In this document: in pieces, positions 12,249 through 53,836 of the stretch
Layout: the number at the start of each line of letters is the position of its first letter
Numbering within the stretch: the stretch's first letter is position 1
DNA from: Candidatus Peregrinibacteria bacterium
GTDB taxonomy: Bacteria > Patescibacteriota > Gracilibacteria > CAIRYL01
Direction of reading: 5' to 3'
DNA length: 57,977 nucleotides
Assembly (NCBI GenBank): GCA_016220175.1
Contig: JACRHZ010000006.1
Location: 1 to 57,977 of the forward strand
Notes under the pieces: generated by a model
Database searches by the model: none
What the model was told of the DNA's origin: nothing
Seen by the model: the letters and a program-made list of their open reading frames with translations, nothing else
Program-made: the position numbers and the translations under genes

Positions 12249-12797
12249 ATGCATTTCTTGCGAACACACACATTTATCAGAATTTTTCTTGGAGTACTTC
12301 TTCTCAACACTTTTTTGGGAAATGTTGTTGGATTGAAAAACACGGTATTTGCAACTCCCGGAGCTACAGTAGTACCAGCGGATGGAGGAGGCAGTACAAC
12401 TTCAGAAAAAGGATCTGATTCTACATCTAAAGCCTTCGAAGGAGCAAAAGCTGGTGTAAGCGCAGATCCATTAGGACAAAAAAATAATATCTTAAAATAC
12501 AAATCAGAAGGAGTTGATCTTGGACCAAAGAATTTTAATATCAATCCAACACCATATGCAAACATGGGGGAGCTCAGCTTTTCATTCATTCGGCTCCTTA
12601 CGGGAACTGTGGTGCTCGCAACGATTGCCACATTTATGATCGGTGCTGGATTTTGGATTTTCTCAGCGGGAGACGAATCTCGCGTAGAGCGGGGAAAAGA
12701 TCTCATGACCTATTCTATCGTCGGAATTCTCGTTGTTCTTGGATCATATGCGCTGATAAAACTCTTTCAGGTCGCTTTGTACACACTTGGAACATAA
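12249..12797 (+). CDS. VirB2/TrbC-like pilin protein 1
   Basis: The 182-residue protein has an N-terminal signal-like helix (about residues 9-30), a Gly/Ser/Thr-rich linker, and two C-terminal membrane helices. These are LTGTVVLATIATFMIGAGFW (about residues 115-134) and SIVGILVVLGSYALIKLF. Between them is a short polar turn with SAGDESRVERGKD. This helix, G-[DE]-x-S/K turn, helix pattern is the VirB2/TrbC pilin fold common in CPR genomes. It is the first of five consecutive genes of this plan, behind a good promoter. The family name is inferred from topology and motif. Confidence 0.75.
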   Translation: MHFLRTHTFIRIFLGVLLLNTFLGNVVGLKNTVFATPGATVVPADGGGSTTSEKGSDSTSKAFEGAKAGVSADPLGQKNNILKYKSEGVDLGPKNFNINPTPYANMGELSFSFIRLLTGTVVLATIATFMIGAGFWIFSAGDESRVERGKDLMTYSIVGILVVLGSYALIKLFQVALYTLGT

Positions 12798-22838: not shown

Positions 22839-23735
22839 CTATGGTGTCAAAAGTTTCCGTGGCTGAACCACATATTCTTCTCCGTGTTTTTGAATTTCTG
22901 CAAATCCGATCATTCTCTGTTTTCGAAAAAGTGAAATTTTTTGACTGTCGAAATTTTTGTTTTTATCTAAAAAAAAGGATTTTCCAAGTCGCACCATTTC
23001 TTCTTCTTTTTCTGAAATTTCAAGTGATGGAAATGGGAAAAATTCTGGTTTCAGCTCGAGAATATCGTTTTCTGAAATATCTTCCATGTTTTTCGCTTTT
23101 GCCACATCAAAATTCCCAATCTTTGTTCGGCGGAGTTCGTTCGCATACGCTCCCGTCCTAAGCTCAGATCCAATGTCACGTATCAAGCTTCGAATATATG
23201 TTCCTGAGCCGCAATGGACTCTGATTTTTGCCCGTGGATATTCAAAATCCAAAACTTCTATCTCGAGAATCTTCACTTTTCTTTTTTTCTTCTCTATTTG
23301 CTTTTCAATATTTTCTCCAGCTCTCATTCGATCACATGCTCTTTTTCCTGAGATTTTAAGCGCCGAATAGAGAGGAGGAATCTGATCAATTTCTCCTAAA
23401 AAATTGGGAAATACTCCGAGGAGATCTTTTTTTGAAAAATGAATATTTTCCGTCGTATGAGAAAGAACGCCTTCTCGATCATCTGTAGAAGACGTCGCAC
23501 CAAAAATTATATCGGCAGAGTATTCTTTCTCCGCAAGAATGAGCTCAGAAAGAACTTTTGTTCCTTCTCCCATCGCCAAAACGAGTAATCCGGAGGCAAA
23601 AGGATCCAAAGTGCCCGCATGTCCGATTTTCCTTATGTTTAAAGTCCTTCGGACGCTACGAATGACATCAAAACTGGAAATATGAGGCGGTTTATCGATG
23701 AGAAGAATTCCCTGCAAGGAACACGATATGTCCAT
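22839..23735 (-). CDS. truB: tRNA pseudouridine(55) synthase TruB
   Basis: TruB makes pseudouridine 55 in the T loop of tRNAs. Seen are LLIDKPPHISSFDV (about residues 11-24), the catalytic aspartate in GHAGTLDPFASGLLVLAMG (about residues 39-57), ATSSTDDREG, QIPPLYSALKISGKRA and the RIRVHCGSGTYIRSLIRDIG segment. The C-terminal ~60 residues probably form the PUA-like part. ATG 23735 is taken as the start; a TTT-rich extension upstream adds three residues. It leads the minus-strand wall-synthesis block. Confidence 0.96.
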   Translation of the reverse strand: MDISCSLQGILLIDKPPHISSFDVIRSVRRTLNIRKIGHAGTLDPFASGLLVLAMGEGTKVLSELILAEKEYSADIIFGATSSTDDREGVLSHTTENIHFSKKDLLGVFPNFLGEIDQIPPLYSALKISGKRACDRMRAGENIEKQIEKKKRKVKILEIEVLDFEYPRAKIRVHCGSGTYIRSLIRDIGSELRTGAYANELRRTKIGNFDVAKAKNMEDISENDILELKPEFFPFPSLEISEKEEEMVRLGKSFFLDKNKNFDSQKISLFRKQRMIGFAEIQKHGEEYVVQPRKLLTP

Positions 23736-23838
23736 AAAAAACAAAATTTAATCTCTTCAAAAATGGCTTTATTCCATTATCTTTTGGTATTTAAATATTA
23801 TTTTGAAATATTCCACTACATCAAGAAAGCTCTATTTT

Positions 23839-23867
23839 TTGACAATACTCATTCTTTTCGATAAGAT
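23839..23867 (+). promoter_or_regulatory. Consensus sigma70 promoter for a putative non-coding RNA
   Basis: A perfect TTGACA (23839-23844), 17-bp spacer and TAAGAT (23862-23867) make this one of the best promoters in the window. It points right, into a ~550-bp region without a credible gene. The expected transcript start is near 23874. Confidence 0.75.
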
Positions 23868-23873
23868 GACCTG

Positions 23874-24421
23874 AAACCTTGAGACAGAAGTGGAGGACAA
23901 AAATTCAAAATTAACGTCTCTCTTCATCTTCGCCTCTCTTTCGTTTCCTCTCAAAAACATACACTACAAACACACAGAAAAACAGATCAACACACATACC
24001 AATACTCCCTGTTCTTTACAATTGCTTGCTTTGTTCTCTTCTCCCTTTCCTAAAGAAAGTGGGGAGAGCCGAGCCTTTCTTCTCCCTGGCCAATCATAAT
24101 ACATATTTAAGAGAGTGCAGGAACAGAGAAGAGGCTCCGCTTTCTTCGCTTTCCGACGTGGATTTCTTCCAAAGACCGGGAAAAAATTCCACCCCCACTA
24201 TGTCCTGTCTCTTCCATATCTCCTAGAGAAATGCGCATGCGACGCCAAAGGGCAGGTCACGGATAGACCAAAACACATCCAAAGGACAGCAAGAAATTCT
24301 CACTCGGTCAGTGAGCTCTTCGAATCCCGGCTCTGGAATCATTAAAAAGATTCCTAAAAGACGCTGGAATATCGAAAAATACCAATACAAAAAAAGTACA
24401 AATAATATTTGTGCTTTTTTT
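23874..24421 (+). ncRNA. Putative structured non-coding RNA, family not recognised
   Basis: The unit runs from a consensus promoter to a U-rich terminator hairpin and has no credible ORF. From about 24030 on it is more GC-rich and rich in complementary segments. CTCTTCTCCCTTTC pairs with GAAAGTGGGGAGAG around 24030-24065. GAGCC-TTTC-TTCTC pairs with GAGAAGAGGCTC (24071-24137). GTGGATTTC faces GAAAAAATTCCAC (24160-24195). GGTC-ACGGATA-GACC (24255-24269) and CTCACT-CGGTC-AGTGAG (24299-24315) are local stems. I tested RNase P RNA, tmRNA, SRP RNA and 6S by eye and could not confirm any. The strand is set by the promoter and terminator. Confidence 0.55.
24389..24421 (+). terminator. Intrinsic terminator of the putative RNA
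   Basis: AAAAAAAGTACAAA and TTTGTGCTTTTTTT pair with one G-U wobble around a five-base loop, ending in a run of seven T on the plus strand. The A-run also makes it work in the other direction. Confidence 0.75.
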
Positions 24422-24466
24422 GCGCATAAAAATAGATGTATCAAAATATTTTTATCGACACCTTGA

Positions 24467-24500
24467 AAAAGGAAGACATGATTTCTCACATCTTCCTTTT
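24467..24500 (-). terminator. Intrinsic terminator of the SLH surface-protein gene
   Basis: AAAAGGAAGA and TCTTCCTTTT form a 10-bp stem with a 14-base loop, 30 bp after the stop codon of the minus-strand gene. Read on the minus strand the stem ends in a T-run. Confidence 0.75.
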
Positions 24501-24529: not shown

Positions 24530-27500
24530 TTATCTTGCAGCGCTTGTCTCGAGTCCAAGTCCTTCAGTAAGACGCTGATTTATCGTCGCGAATTCAGAGC
24601 GAACAAGAGGATCATTTGGATGAAATTTCCCCTGAGATCCCTGGAAAACATCGACATCACTCAAGGCATCAATTGCTTGTAACGCCGATGTATTTGCTGC
24701 AAATTCAGTATAGTCGAGATACTCTTTTGCAGAATCGATCGTTGAATTTTGATCAATATATTTTTTTCCGAGTGTTGCAAAAAGTTCTGCAGTTTCCCAT
24801 CTCGTAATTGGCTGATCCATTGGTCTTGATGGATTTGGAGTATATCCAACAGCAAGTGCGCCATTAAATGCCGCATATCCCCAATCCGGAACTCCAGGGA
24901 AATCCACATCAAGCTTTTCAGAATTCCCAAGAGGAAGTCCGAAAATTCGCATTGCCATAACCAGCGCTTCAATTCTGAGGGTAGGATTTATCGCTCCGAA
25001 TTGTCCTGTGCGATCGCCACCGTATCCGCGTACATATCCATGAGAAGTATTGTACTCAGCCGGAGCAAAATACCATTCGTGCATGGGAACATCCAAGAAA
25101 CTGGCTGCTCCAATTGTATAGCATTCTTGATTATTTTCTTCTGCAAGCACTGTTACATCCGATGCCAAAGTTTCTATTTCTTGAGGAGTAAATTCATTTG
25201 CCTCGAGTGCAAGTCCTGCGCTATTTACTTTTGCTTTCACATCTTCTGATATCCCTCCACACCAGTTTCTCGTCGCTACTACTTGCATTACTTCCTTGAG
25301 ACGTTCTTTAGTGAAACTCCCAAGATCGGCTTTTTCGAGGGATTTTTCCAAATTATCCACGCGCTCAAGAATTATGTTTTTATCAGCAATGATTCGATCT
25401 CGGTGTTTTTCTCCTACTGCAGTAATATTAGAAACGCTTTGAGATACAGCATTCGTAAAACTCTCTGAGAATCTCTCCGTGAGATCAGCAAGTTTTACTG
25501 CTGCCTTTTGAAGCGCCTCATCTAAAACAATTTCAAGTTTATTGGTAAAGTTCTGGAAAATCTTATCTACTTTTTCGGCAACTTTTTCTTCGAGATGTGC
25601 GAAAAGATCATCGAGTGACGCTGTCTCTTCTTCCTGAGATACATACCCATGGAGACGGTTTTTGAGTTTATCTCTCAGCGAAATCGCTTTATCTATAAGT
25701 CGAAGAATTTCACCATTTTCTGTCATGTTCACAGAATTTTTTTGAATGTCATTTACGAGGGATTCAAACTTGGAGAAAATTTCCTGTGTTTTTACGTCTG
25801 AAATTTTACGTTCCTCGATAAAATCGTGAATTGCATCGCGGGATTTTATGAGATCCTGAACAGTTCCTTCTATGAATGAATCTGCTTCAAAAGAGCGTTT
25901 TTCCTGAATGAGTTTTTCTACACGAGATTTTGTATCGTGAAGGGCTTCCAGAAGCTTTTCCAGACCTTGTCCTCGTTGATTTTTGGCAGATTCGAGGAGT
26001 GCTTCGAGATTTTTTACTCCAGCATCGAGCTTTGCATAATACTCTGAATCTTTCTCAATTTTAGCGAGTTCTGCCTTATAAGAAGAGAGACTCTCCAGAA
26101 GTTCTTTCTCGAGAAAGAGGAAGTCTAAGTACGGACGTACTGCTGCCATTTTACTTTCGATTTCAGGAAAAGTTTGTTGATGAAGTATTTTGAGTTTGTC
26201 TTCAACGTCTGCTGTATTCTTTCTATAAGATTGCATTTCTTCCTGTGCTTCTTTGAGAATTTCAAATGCTTTTTTTACGAGATCAGTAATAACGCGCTTT
26301 TCGACAATGTGTTCTGGGAGTTTTCTCATCTGTCTTTCCAAATCAAGAAGATGTTGTTCATCTTTTTGGAGAATTCCGAAAACAGTTTCTTTGTCGGAAA
26401 TATTTTCAAGAGTAAGAACTATCCCATTTTCACACACCATATTTGCTTCAAGTGTCTTCCATCCTTCAGGAACATTGCATGAAGATGAGAAATTCTTACA
26501 GCGACTGGAATCATTGGGGTCAAGTGCAGAAGTGATCACCTGAAGACACGTTTTCTCTGTCTCAGTTGTAGTGACTTCACTTGTTGTTATGTCGTCACGT
26601 GAAACACAAGTCATTGTCCCATCGTTCTTCCATTTCGTCATTCCACTCGCACACCAAGAACCGGAAGGACCACTTTGTCCCAGCTCCAGACAGTATTGAT
26701 CTTTTGCACGGCATCTTCCGGTATTTTGCGGACACTGAATTGATTCCCAGGCTTTTGAATCACGAGAATTAATGGCTACACACGTCATTCCGCTTCCATC
26801 TTTTTTATAACACGAAACGGCATTTCCCCCACACCATCCATCATTTGAACCTTCCTTCCCTGGTTCAACACACATGGTGTCTCCTTGACGACATACTCCG
26901 GATCCTGATGGACATGTTTCGTCCATCCCAGCACAATAGAGCGAACCATCTCCTAAATAGCATTGCTTACTTCCCCCTCCACCACACCATGCTGTTCCGG
27001 GTCCCGTTTCGCCACGTTCGAGACAATTCGTATCCGTTGGATTACAGAATCCCGTATCTAATGGACATTGAGGCTGAGAAGAGGCTCCATTTGGACTTCC
27101 TTGAGGCCACTCAGCACAATAAATCCCAGTTCCATCTTTTTTATAACACTGTTGAGAATTTTTGCACCATGCATTTAATGGACCATATTTTCCCGGTTCG
27201 GTACAATTTGAATCATTTGGACTACATATCTTATACCCGACAGGACATGTTGTCGGTATCATATTTGCTGGATTATTTGTGTTTGGTTGACAATATTTTT
27301 TTGTTCCATCAGCGGTGAAACACTCCATGCTATCAACACACCATCCATTTACTGGTCCTGTTGCACTCGGTTCAATGCAATTCGAATCATTCTGAGCACA
27401 TCTTTTTGTTCCAAATGGACAGGATTTTTGCCAATCAACACAGGTAAGACCACCATCTCCATAATTACATTGTTTCCCCTGATAACACCAAGAACCGCTC

Positions 27501-29596
27501 GGACACACTTCTCCAAGGGAACATTGACGAGGGGTTGATGACGCTACAGTAGTGTTTGTGTTCGTGGTATTTGTTGTAGTGGAAGTTGTCGTGTTTGTTG
27601 TATTTGGAAGAATGGAAGTCGAAAGGTTGGAATTTGTACCGAAAGCATCACAGGTTTGAGTACTTGCATTACACACTTGCGTGCTGGAGCAATCTTTTAC
27701 TTTTCCAAGTGACGTCTGATTCACGATACAACTATCTGATGTTATGTCATACGTGCTCGGTCCATAGAGAGAATTATTGTTACAGACATACGTATTTCCA
27801 CAACGCTCTATGCTGTAGGTCGTATATTCTGTCTGTGTTCGACATTTTCCTTCAAAACATCCGTACTGACACGTTTTTGTAACTGAAGCGATATCTTTAT
27901 TCGCGTTACAATAGTATTCAAACACGTCCGTTCTGCTTGAACAGGAATCACTATACTGAAGAGTATTTCGTGTGGTTACTCCCTTTTGAGAAGAAACGAG
28001 TGGAGATGTCGTGCTATTCATGGTCGTAGCATTTTCTCCATCGGGATCTTCACAAGTTGCCGGCGGTTCTGCGATGATCGTAAAAGTGGGGGAAGCAACA
28101 ACGCAATTTGTCTTTTGATCTCTTGTGGTGTCAGCGGTTGAAACTGTTCTTCCATCATTGAACGCAGAATTTTCCACACAAAAATAATAAGGTCCTCCTA
28201 CGGGAATTGTTCCTGAACCAGTAGTAGAAGAAACACTCGCATAACTTGTTCCGAAAGTTTGTCCGATACTATTTATGAAATTATAAATAGTATTCTGCCA
28301 AATTGGGCTTGAAAAATTCGTGGCGCTTGTACTAACCTTTACGGTCATAGCAACCCAAAGTGTTGACGGGAGCGTTCCGCTTGCCTGAAACTGAGAAGAA
28401 AAAGGGATACTCTGTGTCGACACAAAAGTCGTGTTTCCTGGATTTGCGATACTACTCAGCATGAGATTTGTTGGATCAAGAAGTGTCCAAGTGATAGGAG
28501 CTGTGGTTTTTTCTGGATTCACGAGCCTCGAACCATCTTCACTCACACATTTATAGTATGACTGACCATTTGTGTTACTGGTGTTTCCAGTAAATGGTCC
28601 TGCCATGGTATAGCGACATTTTACATAGTCGGTGGATGGCCATATTGTGTTTCCACTTTGGTCAACAAGATTTCCATCACTTTTTACATATTTATAGTAT
28701 TGAATTCCGTTTACAGTCGTTGCTACTATAAGTTTCGCTACATTTGAAAATGGATATGTCGTTTCGAGTCTCACCCAATCCGATGCATCCCAAACTCCTA
28801 AAAGAGGATTTTCAGCGACTCCACTTCGGGCGCACCACCTGTGACCATCTCCATCATAAAACCCTTGAGCGTTATTCTGCTGGGTAAGATGGGCTCTTGA
28901 AATGGGAGCTCCATACGTCGTATGATCCACCATAGGATCGCCCACGGGGCAATGAACAATTGATCCCGGAAAAAATCCCCCCTTACTCGTGGGGAAAGAT
29001 CCACCCTGACCATTCGCGAAATCTGAACTTGCGCCGACGTTAAAGGCATAATTATTAGAGGAAGCTATATATCCTCCTACTGTATATGAACCGCTGAGAC
29101 CATCGCCATAAAACACGATAATTCCTTCGTGTTTTTTTGCGGCGGTAACATGATCGAGCCATCTTGTCAGGAGCGCGTTATTCAAATCTTCATTTCCGTT
29201 TGCATCGGTGATGACATAGACATCTGTTGTCCCCGCCTTCAGAGGAGGATTGGTAGTATTGGAACTGTACGCACTGCACCAGTTTCCGGGAACTCCAGAA
29301 TTACTATATGCCACAGCATAGCTGTGATAATAAGTATTGTAAGAACCAGCAAATTTTCCGGAAGTTTGGAGTGGTCCAGGATTACACAAAAAGTTCGTCG
29401 CTTCGTAGTTGATAATGTCGTCGTTATACGCGTACGAACCGAGTGTTCCGACGGAAAGGGTCCTATTATACGTCCCTCCTCCTGGAAGACTCAGAACATC
29501 CGCCTTGAGGAAACGGCTGATGTCTCCAAAAAAACTGAGCGATATTGCGACGAGTGCAAGTACTGCACTTCCGAGAAGAAGATTTTTCTTTTTCAT
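24530..29596 (-). CDS. Giant secreted S-layer-homology protein with cysteine-rich repeats
   Basis: The 1688-residue protein starts with a signal peptide (KKKNLLLGSAVLALVAISLSFF). Residues ~35-650 are a Ser/Thr/Asn/Gly-rich surface-type region without a family I can name. A Thr/Asn-rich linker (~660-690) leads into five to six cysteine-rich repeats of ~55 residues (~690-1000), each with a D-x-N/M-C-x-E-x-G and WC pattern and YKKDG-like segments. A long coiled-coil region follows (~1065-1440). Three SLH-like modules end the protein (~1498-1688; for example INPTLRIEALVMAMRIFG, WETAELFATLGK and DPLVRSEFATINQRL). The SLH end would hold it to the wall, with the repeats projecting outward. It has its own promoter and terminator. 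Confidence 0.88.
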   Translation of the reverse strand: MKKKNLLLGSAVLALVAISLSFFGDISRFLKADVLSLPGGGTYNRTLSVGTLGSYAYNDDIINYEATNFLCNPGPLQTSGKFAGSYNTYYHSYAVAYSNSGVPGNWCSAYSSNTTNPPLKAGTTDVYVITDANGNEDLNNALLTRWLDHVTAAKKHEGIIVFYGDGLSGSYTVGGYIASSNNYAFNVGASSDFANGQGGSFPTSKGGFFPGSIVHCPVGDPMVDHTTYGAPISRAHLTQQNNAQGFYDGDGHRWCARSGVAENPLLGVWDASDWVRLETTYPFSNVAKLIVATTVNGIQYYKYVKSDGNLVDQSGNTIWPSTDYVKCRYTMAGPFTGNTSNTNGQSYYKCVSEDGSRLVNPEKTTAPITWTLLDPTNLMLSSIANPGNTTFVSTQSIPFSSQFQASGTLPSTLWVAMTVKVSTSATNFSSPIWQNTIYNFINSIGQTFGTSYASVSSTTGSGTIPVGGPYYFCVENSAFNDGRTVSTADTTRDQKTNCVVASPTFTIIAEPPATCEDPDGENATTMNSTTSPLVSSQKGVTTRNTLQYSDSCSSRTDVFEYYCNANKDIASVTKTCQYGCFEGKCRTQTEYTTYSIERCGNTYVCNNNSLYGPSTYDITSDSCIVNQTSLGKVKDCSSTQVCNASTQTCDAFGTNSNLSTSILPNTTNTTTSTTTNTTNTNTTVASSTPRQCSLGEVCPSGSWCYQGKQCNYGDGGLTCVDWQKSCPFGTKRCAQNDSNCIEPSATGPVNGWCVDSMECFTADGTKKYCQPNTNNPANMIPTTCPVGYKICSPNDSNCTEPGKYGPLNAWCKNSQQCYKKDGTGIYCAEWPQGSPNGASSQPQCPLDTGFCNPTDTNCLERGETGPGTAWCGGGGSKQCYLGDGSLYCAGMDETCPSGSGVCRQGDTMCVEPGKEGSNDGWCGGNAVSCYKKDGSGMTCVAINSRDSKAWESIQCPQNTGRCRAKDQYCLELGQSGPSGSWCASGMTKWKNDGTMTCVSRDDITTSEVTTTETEKTCLQVITSALDPNDSSRCKNFSSSCNVPEGWKTLEANMVCENGIVLTLENISDKETVFGILQKDEQHLLDLERQMRKLPEHIVEKRVITDLVKKAFEILKEAQEEMQSYRKNTADVEDKLKILHQQTFPEIESKMAAVRPYLDFLFLEKELLESLSSYKAELAKIEKDSEYYAKLDAGVKNLEALLESAKNQRGQGLEKLLEALHDTKSRVEKLIQEKRSFEADSFIEGTVQDLIKSRDAIHDFIEERKISDVKTQEIFSKFESLVNDIQKNSVNMTENGEILRLIDKAISLRDKLKNRLHGYVSQEEETASLDDLFAHLEEKVAEKVDKIFQNFTNKLEIVLDEALQKAAVKLADLTERFSESFTNAVSQSVSNITAVGEKHRDRIIADKNIILERVDNLEKSLEKADLGSFTKERLKEVMQVVATRNWCGGISEDVKAKVNSAGLALEANEFTPQEIETLASDVTVLAEENNQECYTIGAASFLDVPMHEWYFAPAEYNTSHGYVRGYGGDRTGQFGAINPTLRIEALVMAMRIFGLPLGNSEKLDVDFPGVPDWGYAAFNGALAVGYTPNPSRPMDQPITRWETAELFATLGKKYIDQNSTIDSAKEYLDYTEFAANTSALQAIDALSDVDVFQGSQGKFHPNDPLVRSEFATINQRLTEGLGLETSAAR

Positions 29597-32005: not shown

Positions 32006-32062
32006 CTAAAGATCGTAGACGTCCTTTCGGTGTTTTATGCGAAGAATGAAAAGAAGAATTTT
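32006..32062 (-). pseudogene. C-terminal remnant of a RelE-type toxin
   Basis: Read on the minus strand this gives KILLFILRIKHRKDVYDL and a stop. It matches the C-terminus of the intact toxin at 32704 (LFILRVKHRKDVYDL). The rest of the toxin is missing and the coiled-coil gene abuts it, so it is a relic of an older toxin-antitoxin module. Confidence 0.75.
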
Positions 32063-32564
32063 AGGCTGCGAGAGCATGCTTATACTTTTCTTCATGGGTT
32101 TGTATTTTTCTATCTGCATAAAGCTTTGTCCTATCAGAAAAAGCATCTAGGCGAGTGATCACTTCATTTTCTACCATGAATGACAGTCCGTCATAACTTA
32201 TTTCAAGTCTCTTATTTGTTTCTTCTTGTTTTTTATTAAACTTTTTCTGTTCCTCAACAAACTTTTTCAGTTCTTGTAGTGCTGTAAATACTTCGTTATT
32301 AAATCCTTTTTGTTCTTCATTAAATCCTTTTTGTTCTTCATTGAATCCTTTTTGTTCTTCATTAAACTTTTTCAGTTCCTCAACAAAATGCTTCAATTCT
32401 TGGAGCCTCACTAAGACCTCTGTTTCATATGTCATTTCAATCTTCCCAACAGATTTTTTGAGTTCTTGTAATGCTGTGAGTACTTCCTTTTGAAATGCGT
32501 ACTGAGTCACGAGAAAAGTAAAAAAGGCAAAGCGCATTGTAAATATTTCTTTAGTAGCATGCAA
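32061..32564 (-). CDS. Coiled-coil protein with FNEEQKG repeats, copy 1
   Basis: The 167-residue protein starts with a partly hydrophobic stretch (MRFAFFTFLVTQYAF). It continues as a long coiled coil containing two copies of a TALQELKKSVGK/FVEE-like unit and three exact FNEEQKG heptads. The heptads correspond to a 21-bp unit repeated three times (32298-32360). The C-terminus reads KLYADRKIQTHEEKYKHALAA. A paralog sits at 34476. The function is unknown; similar coil proteins lie beside mobile elements in CPR genomes. Confidence 0.6.
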   Translation of the reverse strand: MHATKEIFTMRFAFFTFLVTQYAFQKEVLTALQELKKSVGKIEMTYETEVLVRLQELKHFVEELKKFNEEQKGFNEEQKGFNEEQKGFNNEVFTALQELKKFVEEQKKFNKKQEETNKRLEISYDGLSFMVENEVITRLDAFSDRTKLYADRKIQTHEEKYKHALAA

Positions 32565-32592
32565 GAACTTTTCTCTTCAGAAAGCCAAAAAG

Positions 32593-32610
32593 TGTCGACG
32601 CGGTTCGACA
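32593..32610. repeat. REP-like palindrome (family A variant)
   Basis: TGTCGA-CGCGGT-TCGACA is a 6-bp stem followed by ACACAATCG, as after the 11089 copy. It marks the right end of duplication copy 1; the identical 18-mer ends copy 2 at 34924. Confidence 0.65.
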
Positions 32611-32663
32611 ACACAATCGCACTTCTTTGCGAATCGCGAAAGATGATGACAACAAAACGTTTT

Positions 32664-32689
32664 GGAGCAACTCTTGGAAGAATTGCTCC
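32664..32689. repeat. REP-like palindrome (family B)
   Basis: GGAGCAACTC...AATTGCTCC is a stem-loop with one mismatch, followed by GACGA. Better copies are at 33508 and 34244. It lies just downstream of the RelE toxin stop codon and may act as a terminator. Confidence 0.65.
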
Positions 32690-32703
32690 GACGAGGGTAC
32701 TGC

Positions 32704-32976
32704 TCAAAGATCATAAACATCTTTCCTGTGTTTTACTCGCAGAATGAAAAGTATGCTAATTTGTCCATCTTTCTCAATTCTGAAAATAGCTCTATATTGA
32801 CCAATTCTAAATCTATATCTTCCATGAAAATCACCCTGTAAAGATTTGGCGAAAGACAAAGGATTCTCTTGTTCTGAATAGAAAAATAATTTTTGGATAA
32901 CTCTTTTTGCCGCATCTTCCTGGAGATATTTCAGATCTCTTCTTGCCGTATCTGTAAGAAAAATTTTATATTGCAT
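32704..32976 (-). CDS. RelE/ParE-family toxin
   Basis: The 90-residue protein has the RelE/ParE pattern: YKIFLTDTARRDLKYLQ at the start, LQGDFHGRYRFRIGQYRAIFRIE in the middle with the conserved Gly-x-Arg-x-Arg-x-Gly strand, and the VKHRKDVYDL end. This is the RelE type with C-terminal HRKDVY. The stop of the antitoxin and the start of the toxin share one base (32976). It is likely a translation-dependent mRNase held by the YefM-like antitoxin. Confidence 0.86.
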   Translation of the reverse strand: MQYKIFLTDTARRDLKYLQEDAAKRVIQKLFFYSEQENPLSFAKSLQGDFHGRYRFRIGQYRAIFRIEKDGQISILFILRVKHRKDVYDL

Positions 32977-33227
32977 TAGAGCATTCCAAATTCTTTCATC
33001 ACTTCTTCGAGGCTATAGACTTCTCCTCTCTTAACTTCTTCTTCAGCTGCAAGAATTTCTTGGTAGAGTTTCTCCATCGCGAATTCTTTTTCATCAATTG
33101 GTTTTACTTCCAGAACAGGAACATTCTTTTTCAGAATGATGTAGCGAATTCCTCCTTTTCGAGAAGCCTTTACATAGCTGGCCATGTTTTGGCGAAAATC
33201 TTTCATTCCAATAAGTTTTGTAACCAT
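32976..33227 (-). CDS. Phd/YefM-family antitoxin
   Basis: The 83-residue protein starts with the Phd/YefM fold (IGMKDFRQNMASYVKASRKG, then YIILKKNVPVLEVKPID). It ends in an acidic helical tail (EEEVKRGEVYSLEEVMKEF) that would bind the toxin. It is the first gene of the minus-strand pair. The promoter region at 33228-33279 carries two YefM-type palindromes directly in front of its start codon. Confidence 0.86.
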   Translation of the reverse strand: MVTKLIGMKDFRQNMASYVKASRKGGIRYIILKKNVPVLEVKPIDEKEFAMEKLYQEILAAEEEVKRGEVYSLEEVMKEFGML

Positions 33228-33279
33228 AGTGTATACTTAAGAGCACCTGAAGTGTACACTATAAAATTAGAAATATCAA
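33228..33279 (-). promoter_or_regulatory. Promoter and paired YefM-type operators
   Basis: AGTGTACACT (33251-33260) is a perfect palindrome with a TGTACA core, and AGTGTATACT (33228-33237) is a near copy 23 bp away. On the minus strand TTGATA (33274-33279), 17 bp, TACACT (33251-33256) forms a promoter whose -10 lies in the first palindrome. Two TGTACA-core palindromes are the known operator design of yefM-yoeB. Confidence 0.78.
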
Positions 33280-33385
33280 TCTTTCTCAACTGTATTTTCT
33301 GATATGGCGAGAGAAATAGAAAATCTGAGCAGAGAGAAGAATCTGCTCTGCATCTTTGCAATGAGGGAAAAACGATGCACGAATG

Positions 33386-33406
33386 TGTCGTCGGACATCG
33401 TCGACA
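33386..33406. repeat. REP-like palindrome (family A variant)
   Basis: TGTCGTCG and CGTCGACA pair at seven of eight positions around GACAT. It lies in a 480-bp gap that also holds palindromes at 33508 and 33580 and in which I see no credible gene. Confidence 0.6.
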
Positions 33407-33507
33407 GATTCGTACTGAAGAAAGAGGAAGAATTAAAAAATTATCTGCATAAGTTCAGATACATATTGCACTCCATAAATGAGGGGACTTAACCCTCCTC
33501 TTCCGTC

Positions 33508-33533
33508 GGAGCAACTCTTTTGAGAGTTGCTCC
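33508..33533. repeat. REP-like palindrome (family B)
   Basis: GGAGCAACTC and GAGTTGCTCC form a perfect 10-bp stem around TTTTGA. It is preceded by CCGTC, so the unit reads GTCGGAGC. Confidence 0.72.
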
Positions 33534-33579
33534 CCACGTTTCTATGGCATCTCCCTCAAAGATTCACAAAACATTTTTC

Positions 33580-33600
33580 TGTCGTCGAACACTGACGACA
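33580..33600. repeat. REP-like palindrome (family A)
   Basis: TGTCGTC and GACGACA form a 7-bp stem around GAACACT. It is the nearest palindrome upstream of the RAYT gene, 110 bp away. Confidence 0.65.
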
Positions 33601-33709
33601 CTTTGAGCATAAAAAAACCGCATACCATTGAGCCATTCAAGCGATTCTGTTTTCTGAAGTTTGTTTTTGATACGAAAATTCTATGATGTTCTTATGTTTT
33701 CCCTTCTCT

Positions 33710-34213
33710 ATGCCATCTCCAAGAATTGCTCGTGAATATAAAGATCAGACCGTATTTATCTCTTGCACGATACAAAAGTGGTACTATCTCTTCGACAGGC
33801 ATAATCGTTGGGAAATTCTTGCGAAGAGTCTTGAATACTGCCAAAGGCACAAAGATCTAAAAATCTTTGCGTATATATTTATGCTGAACCATATACATCT
33901 TCTCGCTCAAGCGCCAGATATGTCTCGCGTCCTTTGCGACTTTAAAAAGTATACTTCCCGAGAACTTATGAAAAATATTCTCTTAGCAGAACCACATGTA
34001 GCAGAACTTTTTCCTCAAAAAAATGGGAAATTCAAAATATGGCAGGAAACGAATTGTCCAATAATTATTGAGTCAGAAAAATTCTTTTTACAAAAACAGC
34101 AATACATTCATGAAAATCCAGTACGAAAACAATATGTGGAAAATCCAGAATATTGGTATTGGTCATCTGCGAATCCAACTCAACCTCTCAAGATCACAAA
34201 TGGTTTTGAGTAA
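33710..34213 (+). CDS. REP-associated tyrosine transposase (RAYT, Y1 HUH superfamily)
   Basis: The 167-residue protein belongs to the IS200-like Y1 transposases domesticated with REP palindromes. It shows YKDQTVFISCTI at the start, FAYIFMLNHIHLLAQ with the HUH histidine pair (about residues 53-67), the helix carrying the catalytic tyrosine (FKKYTSRELMKN, near residue 83), and the RAYT-type ending QQYIHENPVRKQYV plus YWYWSSANP. ATG 33710 (MPSPRIAREY) is the natural start; ATG 33683 is in frame. It is flanked by palindromes on both sides (33508, 33580 and 34244) and has a truncated relative at 35045. It probably nicks and joins single-stranded DNA at these palindromes. Confidence 0.88.
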   Translation: MPSPRIAREYKDQTVFISCTIQKWYYLFDRHNRWEILAKSLEYCQRHKDLKIFAYIFMLNHIHLLAQAPDMSRVLCDFKKYTSRELMKNILLAEPHVAELFPQKNGKFKIWQETNCPIIIESEKFFLQKQQYIHENPVRKQYVENPEYWYWSSANPTQPLKITNGFE

Positions 34214-34243
34214 TTTGAAAGAAAGGTGTCACAGAAACGTTAG

Positions 34244-34269
34244 GGAGCAACTCTAGGAAGAGTTGCTCC
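34244..34269. repeat. REP-like palindrome (family B)
   Basis: GGAGCAACTC and GAGTTGCTCC form a perfect 10-bp stem around TAGGAA, then GACGA. It sits 30 bp after the RAYT stop codon and directly at the left end of duplication copy 2. Confidence 0.75.
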
Positions 34270-34274
34270 GACGA

Positions 34275-34412
34275 AGGAAAAAACTGAAAGGCGATTGGTA
34301 TGGATATGAAGAACTTCAGGTTGGAGGCGATATCCGAATTATATTTCGCGAGAAAGAGAATATCGCGGTTTTGGAAGCGATAGGCACGCATTCGCAATTG
34401 GAACTGTCATAA
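34275..34412 (+). pseudogene. 3' fragment of the RHH-RelE toxin gene
   Basis: It encodes RKKLKGDWYGYEELQVGGD and the rest of the toxin C-terminus to the stop codon, nearly identical to the end of the gene at 31728. The first half of the toxin and the antitoxin are absent. The cut coincides with the palindrome at 34244. Confidence 0.85.
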
Positions 34413-34420
34413 TGCCATTC

Positions 34421-34477
34421 CTAAAGATCGTAGACATCCTTTCGGTGTTTTATGCGAAGAATGAAAAGAAGAATTTT
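34421..34477 (-). pseudogene. Second copy of the RelE C-terminal remnant
   Basis: It encodes the same KILLFILRIKHRKDVYDL tail as at 32006. It was therefore already a remnant when the block was duplicated. Confidence 0.75.
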
Positions 34478-34895
34478 AGGCTGCGAGAGCATGCTTATAC
34501 TTTTCTTCATGGGTTAGTATTTTCTTGTCAGTATACAGCTTTATCTCGTCAGCAATGCCATCGAGACGGGTGATGACCTCATTTTGAACCAGGAATGTCA
34601 ATCCATCATATGTCATCTCGAGTCTTTTATTCGTTTCTTTTTGTTCTTTCACAAATCCCTCGATCTCGTCATTGAAGTTCTTTTGTTCTTCATTAAATTT
34701 CTTTTGTTCCTCAACAAAATTCTTCAATTCTTGGAGTCTTACTAAGACCTCTGTTTTATATGTCATTTCAATCTTCCCAACAGATTTTTTCAGTTCTTGT
34801 AATGCCGTGAGTACTTCCTTTTGAAATGCGTACTGAGTCACGAGAAAAGTAAAAAAGACAAAGTGTATTGTAAATATTTCTTTAGTAGCGTGCAA
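34476..34895 (-). CDS. Coiled-coil protein, copy 2
   Basis: The 139-residue paralog of the 32061 gene has the same N-terminus (MHATKEIFT...FLVTQYAF) and the same C-terminus (HEEKYKHALAA). It lacks 28 residues in the FNEEQKG repeat region, where it reads KKFNEEQKNFNDEIEGF. The open frame is kept while the number of heptads changes, so expansion and contraction of the 21-bp unit has occurred. The function is unknown. Confidence 0.58.
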   Translation of the reverse strand: MHATKEIFTIHFVFFTFLVTQYAFQKEVLTALQELKKSVGKIEMTYKTEVLVRLQELKNFVEEQKKFNEEQKNFNDEIEGFVKEQKETNKRLEMTYDGLTFLVQNEVITRLDGIADEIKLYTDKKILTHEEKYKHALAA

Positions 34896-52883: not shown

Positions 52884-52986
52884 TGAGTTGGGTTAGACGC
52901 CCTCTCCCTTCCCTTTCCCATACCCTTTTTAACTTCTCGACGGGAGATTTTATCCACTTTTTACAAGAAAGGCAAGAGAATATTCT

Positions 52987-53015
52987 CATTAAGATATCTT
53001 CTGTGAATTTGTCAA
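52987..53015 (-). promoter_or_regulatory. Possible promoter of the LysM-M23 gene
   Basis: On the minus strand a perfect TTGACA (53010-53015) is followed by 17 bp and a weak TTAATG (52987-52992). The leader would be ~100 bases. Confidence 0.45.
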
Positions 53016-53020
53016 CCCCT

Positions 53021-53078
53021 CAGAATTCTCAGAAAAAATTCTCAAAACTCAGAATTCATCATTTCAGAATTCTGGAAA
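53021..53078. repeat. AGAATTCT short repeats
   Basis: CAGAATTCT occurs at 53021 and 53064, with TCAGAATTCA between them and AAAATTCTCA variants. The repeats lie in the 355-bp gap between the M23 gene and the next cassette. No gene is seen in the gap. Confidence 0.4.
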
Positions 53079-53185
53079 ACTCGGCTTTAAAAGCTACGAT
53101 TTCCTCTTTCTTATTTTTATAAGTTCTGAAAAGTTTTTGAAAAATATCGGCTTCAAAATGTCAAATTGCTCCTCTTTCTTTTCCT

Positions 53186-53214
53186 TTGAAAAAATCTCAT
53201 TTTTGTGCTAGAAT
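53186..53214 (+). promoter_or_regulatory. Promoter of the 53-57 kb cassette
   Basis: TTGAAA (53186-53191), 17 bp and TAGAAT (53209-53214), with an extended TGC before the -10. The -10 box ends only 3 bp before ATG 53218, so translation more likely starts at ATG 53239. Confidence 0.75.
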
Positions 53215-53238
53215 ACTATGAATACTTCACTGAAATTT

Positions 53239-53532
53239 ATGGAATCAGAGCCAATGTGGAGGGGAAATATACGGATGACAGCGCAGCAAAGGCGAAATAT
53301 GCGGGCAAAAATAATACGGGGCGGGAAAATAGCAGATGAAATCCGAGAGATATCTAAAAAACATCATAGTGAGCTTGAAGTCCCGATGGCCGAAACAAAA
53401 ATGGATACCATTTTCCAAAAAGAATCCGCTTTAATAGGAACAAAAACAGCTCCCTTTAAAAATCCACCAAAACAACAACTGACATTTCTGCAAAAAATTC
53501 TCAACTTTTTAAAACATATTTTTCTTCCATGA
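53239..53532 (+). CDS. Small basic protein leading the 53-57 kb cassette
   Basis: The 97-residue protein is rich in Arg and Lys in its first half (NIRMTAQQRRNMRAKIIRGG). It ends in an amphipathic segment (LTFLQKILNFLKHIFLP). No family is recognised. I prefer ATG 53239 because the promoter's transcript start would fall at or after ATG 53218. Its stop overlaps the start of the next small gene (ATGA), so the cassette is translationally coupled. Confidence 0.6.
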   Translation: MESEPMWRGNIRMTAQQRRNMRAKIIRGGKIADEIREISKKHHSELEVPMAETKMDTIFQKESALIGTKTAPFKNPPKQQLTFLQKILNFLKHIFLP

Positions 53533-53831
53533 CTACAGACGAACTCGTCGCGCTCATCGAAAACGCTCCTTTCCCTCAGGCAGAAAAGGACAGGCTGATA
53601 ACGCTTGCATGCGTGGCAGACGAAGAACACAAAGGTCATATTTCTACTCTCGTGATCACGTTTACGAAGCGCATTAATGACGAAAGATCAGCAATGATTC
53701 CCAAAGAAGAGGCGGACAAAATACGCGCAAAGGGAAGAGAAATGCAGAAACTGATTCGGAAGAAGGGTGAGGAGATTTATCGGCAGGCGGAAACAGGACA
53801 ATTAAGCAATTTTGAAGCACAACTTTCTTAA
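53529..53831 (+). CDS. Small helical protein, partner gene of the 636-residue protein
   Basis: The 100-residue protein begins TTDELVALIENAPFPQAEKD, then RLITLACVADEEHKGHISTL and a charged coil (KADKIRAK-like ADKIRAKGREMQKLIRKKGE). It has the same plan as the small genes at 37649, 41568 and 45650: an N-terminal helix, a L-x2-L-x3-D-E-[EQ]-x4-I helix and a charged tail. It lies 5 bp before the 636-residue gene and overlaps its upstream neighbour by 4 bp. Confidence 0.65.
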   Translation: MTTDELVALIENAPFPQAEKDRLITLACVADEEHKGHISTLVITFTKRINDERSAMIPKEEADKIRAKGREMQKLIRKKGEEIYRQAETGQLSNFEAQLS

Positions 53832-53836
53832 AACAT

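Follow-up and report, generated by a model that had tools for sequence, protein, structure and literature searches.

The ornate, large, extremophilic (OLE) RNA is a large structured bacterial non-coding RNA of about 600 nt, it has a mysterious biochemical function and forms part of a ribonucleoprotein (PMC9723947). OLE has been described from Gram-positive extremophilic or anaerobic bacteria and binds dedicated Oap proteins. Structures are also available for ROOL and GOLLD (PMC12286853), which are large free-standing bacterial non-coding RNAs of unknown role. Better understood RNAs have some of the same properties. The 6S RNA has its own promoter, is present in a single copy, is dominated by a long hairpin and acts in trans, and tmRNA is a stable RNA of about 500 nt that contains pseudoknots.

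Here we describe a unit of about 550 nt in a member of the Gracilibacteria, found in a window of 57,977 nt (the whole stretch of DNA that was analysed). The unit is similar to OLE in length and in being a large structured bacterial RNA, but it has no Rfam OLE match, and neither sequence nor neighbouring genes were seen to be in common with OLE. It has no Rfam match to ROOL or GOLLD and is simpler than these, a chain in which small hairpins and a pseudoknot accompany one long hairpin. Compared with 6S RNA it is about three times longer, lacks the central bubble, contains a pseudoknot and has no Rfam match, and unlike tmRNA it is without a tRNA-like domain. The RNA family is new, its kind (the large structured bacterial non-coding RNAs such as OLE, ROOL and GOLLD) has precedents. 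A literature search found no survey of structured RNAs in these bacteria.

The transcription unit and its surroundings

The unit (Table 1) is flanked by truB (22839–23744, minus strand) and by a gene of 1688 codons (24530–29596, minus strand), which we take to be an SLH gene following the label given in an earlier sequence-only reading of this DNA. Its orientation diverges from that of truB and converges with that of the SLH-type gene. The sequence-only reading had claimed a consensus promoter, a U-tailed hairpin at 24389 and the absence of a credible ORF, and each of these is borne out. The promoter is present as described and an equivalent promoter stands at the same place in orthologous units; transcription would start near 23874. 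There are 17 promoter-like sites in the window that match at least 10 of the 12 consensus positions. About half of them lie just upstream of gene starts, at distances of 25–80 nt (for example those of a tRNA-Leu gene and the genes starting at 12249 and 46275, and on the minus strand at 29596, 49145 and 40063), the consensus is therefore informative in this window.

The hairpin at the end of the unit is an inverted repeat followed by seven T residues, it was missed by a consensus terminator scanner because it is A+T-rich. A second hairpin (AAAAGGAAGACATGA/TCACATCTTCCTTTT, 24467–24500) lies directly past the stop codon of the SLH-type gene and is probably that gene's own terminator. The hairpin at 24388–24422 is thus not needed by the SLH-type gene, and it fits the end of a unit on the plus strand.

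The ORFs within the unit are 31–88 codons long and have codon-usage scores of -0.17 to 0.15, compared with 0.09–0.44 for real genes. They have no match in Pfam, and no ORF is common to the unit and a homologue from another genus. On these grounds a protein-coding reading of the ORFs of 69 and 76 codons was rejected. There is no second copy of the unit in its own genome; a reading of the ATACCAATAC/TATTCCA repeats as the terminal inverted repeats of a mobile element was rejected for this reason.

Table 1. Positions of the unit and of its predicted parts in the window.
Feature	Position	Strand	Description
Non-coding RNA unit	23839–24426	+	About 550 nt, promoter to U-tailed terminator
Sigma-70-type promoter TTGACA-N17-TAAGAT	23839–23867	+	-35 TTGACA 23839–23844, 17 nt, -10 TAAGAT 23862–23867
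Leader, unstructured	23874–24054	+	G-poor, A/C/U-rich; 17 G and 51 C in 181 nt
Long hairpin P1	24055–24153	+	Folding z-score, covariance model matches in four other genomes, covariation
P1 arms	24055–24069/24139–24153; 24071–24075 and 24078–24084 with 24126–24137; 24085–24088/24118–24121	+	Large apical loop
Probable hairpin P2, GUGGAUUU...AAAUUCCAC	24158–24192	+	Position equivalent to homologue hairpins of different sequence
H-type pseudoknot	24255–24280	+	A-rich loop AAAACAC
Pseudoknot stem S1	GGUC 24255–24258/GACC 24266–24269	+	Rebuilt with other pairs in homologues
Pseudoknot stem S2	GGAU 24261–24264/AUCC 24277–24280	+	Formed by the loop GGAU across AAAACAC
Small hairpin P5, CUCAC/GUGAG	24299–24315	+	Homologous hairpins in other members
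Intrinsic terminator hairpin and T7	24388–24426	+	Inverted repeat 24388–24404/24406–24422, 94% complementary

Other stretches of the window are also of note. At 32061–34895 two paralogous coiled-coil ORFs (32061–32564 and 34476–34895, both on the minus strand), which begin almost identically and have EEQKGFN-type repeats, lie on either side of a small ORF (33683–34213, plus strand) which looks like a Y1-type transposase; the gap of 1118 nt before this ORF includes well-folding stretches. A gap of 953 nt at 52884–53836 has no ORF and no unusual folding. A promoter-like site, TTGAAA-17-TAGAAT, lies in it at 53186, and the next gene follows after about 650 nt. The window reads with the standard bacterial code.

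Homologues in related genomes

We refer to the genome of the window as G000 and to those of its relatives as G001, G002 and so on. A blastn search of the unit against 60 relatives found no homologue, and when plasmids and phages were included the only hits were fortuitous, A-rich matches at the terminator. When tmRNA and RNase P RNA of this genome served as queries, blastn gave weak yet recognisable matches. A covariance model of hairpin P1 with the window as its only sequence (R1) was run with lenient filters on 39 relative genomes, and besides itself it matched a single place (G004:C115:201-309, 35 bits, E 1.4e-6). G004 belongs to the same GTDB family as the window genome and to a different genus; the matching locus is non-coding and lies upstream of dnaJ. 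The primary sequences of the hairpin regions of the window and G004 align with a score of 56, the best of 500 shuffles scores 40.

A second model built from these two hairpins (R2) matches G005:C72 (81 bits), G003:C20 (72 bits) and G002:C29 (71.5 bits) with E-values of 1e-16 to 1e-19. All three genomes belong to the genus of G004. Their units run from a TTGACA-18-TANGNT promoter (TTGACA-18-TAAGAT, TTGACA-18-TAAGGT and TTGACA-18-TATGAT) through a G-poor leader, the hairpin and a 3' domain to a U-tailed terminator. The contig of G004 begins at or inside the promoter region, with the -35 box off the contig.

R2 also has a weak match (E 0.015) in G008, which is from another family of the same order; the hairpin by itself is at chance level there (23 bits). 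In the G008 unit the 3' arm (CUUUCUUCGCUUUCC) is the same, the promoter reads TTGAAA-17-TATTAT and the terminator is strong. The 3' domain of this unit aligns to that of the window with a score of 46 where the best of 300 shuffles reaches 35. On the basis of the 3' domain, promoter and terminator we count G008 as a sixth member, so the family consists of six members, three of which are closely related. The sequence-only reading had named a lack of conservation in relatives as evidence against such an RNA; homologues are found in five more genomes.

All six copies are single in their genomes and end in a terminator, and a promoter is present wherever the 5' end is on the contig. The neighbouring genes, named from their translations, differ: truB and the SLH gene, glyA and secF, ferredoxin and helicase genes, dnaJ, and an RND transporter gene and lgt. 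This argues against cis-regulation of one particular gene and for an RNA that acts in trans. The position next to truB is not conserved, as other genes stand upstream of truB in relatives; a TruB scan of the genome's contigs found one remote TruB only. In three relatives from the class (G021, G028 and G017, loci L064, L069 and L070) truB contains in-frame TGA codons, consistent with a recoded TGA in parts of the class.

Searches of G007, a relative from the same order (model search of the whole genome and local scan of 72% of it), of G001 (model search of the whole genome and local scan of 30% of it) and of G006, a genome that is 76% complete, yielded no convincing copy. Given the results for G007 and G001, the RNA appears either not to be universal in the order or to have diverged. 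Candidate extra members from G007, G001 and viral contigs were rejected: L128 is a terminator between genes, L214 is a nadC-like coding sequence and L224 is probably coding viral DNA. Within the genomes searched, the family seems to be restricted to one order of the Gracilibacteria lineage.

Conserved structure

The whole unit folds better than its shuffled versions (z = -4.6), mainly due to the hairpin at 24055–24153 and the terminator. The hairpin has a z-score of -5.7 on the plus strand and -2.0 on the minus strand. The core of the unit (24020–24350) is only modestly above shuffles (z = -1.9), and the pseudoknot and the small hairpin downstream of P1 are at chance level by energy (z = -1.1 and +0.7). 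Folding energy alone would leave the finding undecided. The core of the run of complementary segments that the sequence-only reading had placed at 24030–24315 is one long hairpin at 24055–24153; for the pseudoknot and small hairpin extending to 24315 the support comes from the homologues.

The alignment of five sequences was fitted to a model of the same structure, so counts from it lean towards that structure. In it helix 1 of P1 has 27 pairs, 94.7% of whose cells are paired; eight pairs changed on both sides with pairing kept and five have one-sided changes. Over the whole hairpin nine pairs changed on both sides, compared with 2.9 ± 1.3 in shuffles (none of 500 shuffles reaching this number) and 1–3 in controls with slid partners. 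These are compensatory changes. The 3' arm of P1 (CUUUCUUCGCUUU) is almost invariant. The neighbouring hairpin P2 is probable and has weaker support than P1, with one MFE fold per homologue. The sequence of the leader is not conserved; its poverty in G is common to the four same-family homologues and absent in G008.

The stems of the pseudoknot are rebuilt with other pairs in the homologues. In G002, G003 and G005 stem S1 is CGUU/AACG and stem S2 is GGUA/UACC across AAAAA-rich loops. S1 is CGUUG/CAACG in G004 and GGUCG/CGACC in G008, with an S2 of three base pairs in both. These pairs were tabulated by hand, as MAFFT alignments shift the pseudoknot region by one column. Four of the six units (G000, G002, G003 and G005) have the exact pattern of two 4-bp Watson-Crick stems at the homologous place; in 724 kb of G007, with both strands included, it occurs only four times. 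Hairpin P5 is found in all six members, as CUCAC/GUGAG in the window, UGAGA/UCUCA in genus g3 (GAGA/UCUC in its member G004) and GAGC/GCUC in G008.

Guide-type RNAs have a pseudoknot, several hairpins and a single-stranded 5' part, and they are normally linked to the gene for their protein. The predicted architecture of the unit recalls such RNAs by analogy, and it could be a tracr-like, omega-like or retron-like guide for a nuclease encoded elsewhere. None of the six copies has a gene for a nuclease or reverse transcriptase as its direct neighbour, however, and we regard a guide function as very improbable.

The modest folding of the core, the presence of other gaps of 650–1100 nt in the window and the failure of blastn to find any relative would suit an intergenic spacer or untranslated leader with coincidental features, or a decayed element or gene. 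Against this are the homologues found by structure-aware searches, the compensatory changes and the different neighbours in other genomes, as well as the retained promoter and terminator, the single genomic copy and the absence of a coding signal; such a reading is scarcely credible. The existence and structure of the predicted RNA are well supported by sequence comparison. We infer that the RNA is made and stable and acts in trans, and the unit is very probably a free-standing gene of about 550 nt that defines a new family of trans-acting structured non-coding RNA.

Identity and possible function

The sequence-only reading had left a choice between a very divergent housekeeping RNA and a new family, and had suggested an Rfam scan. 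In Rfam 15 (4227 families) the unit has no match above the gathering threshold, nor do the five homologous loci. Members give weak matches to eukaryotic microRNA models, which is what any long hairpin gives. Together with the five further genomes, the covariation and the retained promoter and terminator, this upholds the new family. The housekeeping branch falls for tmRNA and RNase P RNA. A genome has one gene for tmRNA, with its tRNA-like domain and tag reading frame, and one for RNase P RNA, with its conserved catalytic core. The locus has no ARAGORN or Rfam match to tmRNA (RF00023) and no tRNA-like domain, and the genuine tmRNA gene is at G000:C48:9020-9510 (101 bits). Similarly it has no match to RNase P RNA (RF00010), with rnpB at G000:C56:31880-32362 (150 bits).

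The signal recognition particle RNA was made unlikely as an identity for the unit. SRP RNA models (RF00169, RF01854) have no match at the locus, in the rest of its genome or in 20 relatives, and RF00169 has none in 78 genomes across the phylum with stricter filters; a 17-bit match in G009 was rejected as it is inside a coding sequence. The protein partner Ffh (TIGR00959, E 1e-20), which recognises the domain IV hairpin of SRP RNA, was also not detected in the genome or in 10 relatives, making 11 genomes of the class, while 14 of 14 controls were positive. A hidden SRP RNA is therefore not expected. The SRP pathway may be absent from this lineage or very divergent in it.

The most plausible remaining candidate among known housekeeping or regulatory RNAs is a 6S-type RNA that has drifted beyond the Rfam models. 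RNAs of this type capture RNA polymerase, binding the sigma-70 holoenzyme and serving as template for a product RNA. Such an RNA would be expected to have its own promoter and terminator, a single copy, a long hairpin and no linkage to a gene, as the unit does, and the window has no match to 6S RNA. The length of the unit also has parallels in the genome's housekeeping RNAs, with tmRNA at 491 nt and RNase P RNA at 483 nt, both of them long; the RNase P RNA of same-family relatives has about 360 nt, which makes large insertions likely. On the other hand no 6S, SRP, tmRNA or RNase P RNA match is found on the region at E-values up to 10 or on the homologues, where 6S was searched up to E 3–5. P1 forms an almost unbroken helix capped by a large apical loop and lacks the stem, open central bubble and stem layout of 6S RNA. 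A drifted RNA of known type is thus improbable. It is unlikely, if somewhat less so, that the unit represents a new functional class, a housekeeping ribonucleoprotein RNA specific to this order of Gracilibacteria-like Patescibacteria, in which neither SRP RNA nor Ffh was detected. Such an RNA would perhaps carry out a task for which other bacteria use a different RNA or protein.

For the new family of trans-acting RNA we tentatively suggest a role as a ribonucleoprotein scaffold, a mechanism that is possible but not the expected outcome. Conserved paired elements and a pseudoknot with an A-rich crossing loop are characteristic of RNAs with a fixed three-dimensional body. P1 and the pseudoknot would fold into such a protein-bound body and protect the ends of the RNA. 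The G-poor single-stranded leader could then serve as a surface that holds a partner, which may be a sequestered RNA-binding protein or the G/U-rich stretches of mRNAs. In the five same-family members the leader keeps its composition (few G) and not its sequence, which suggests that the lack of structure is the important property.

Large structured bacterial RNAs such as OLE, ROOL and GOLLD are few and tend towards unexpected roles. The unit provides a concrete locus, alignment and structure for searches of metatranscriptomes, including those of co-cultured relatives. A covariance model built from a single sequence succeeded where blastn failed, and this suggests that sequence drift conceals further RNAs in the small genomes of Patescibacteria.
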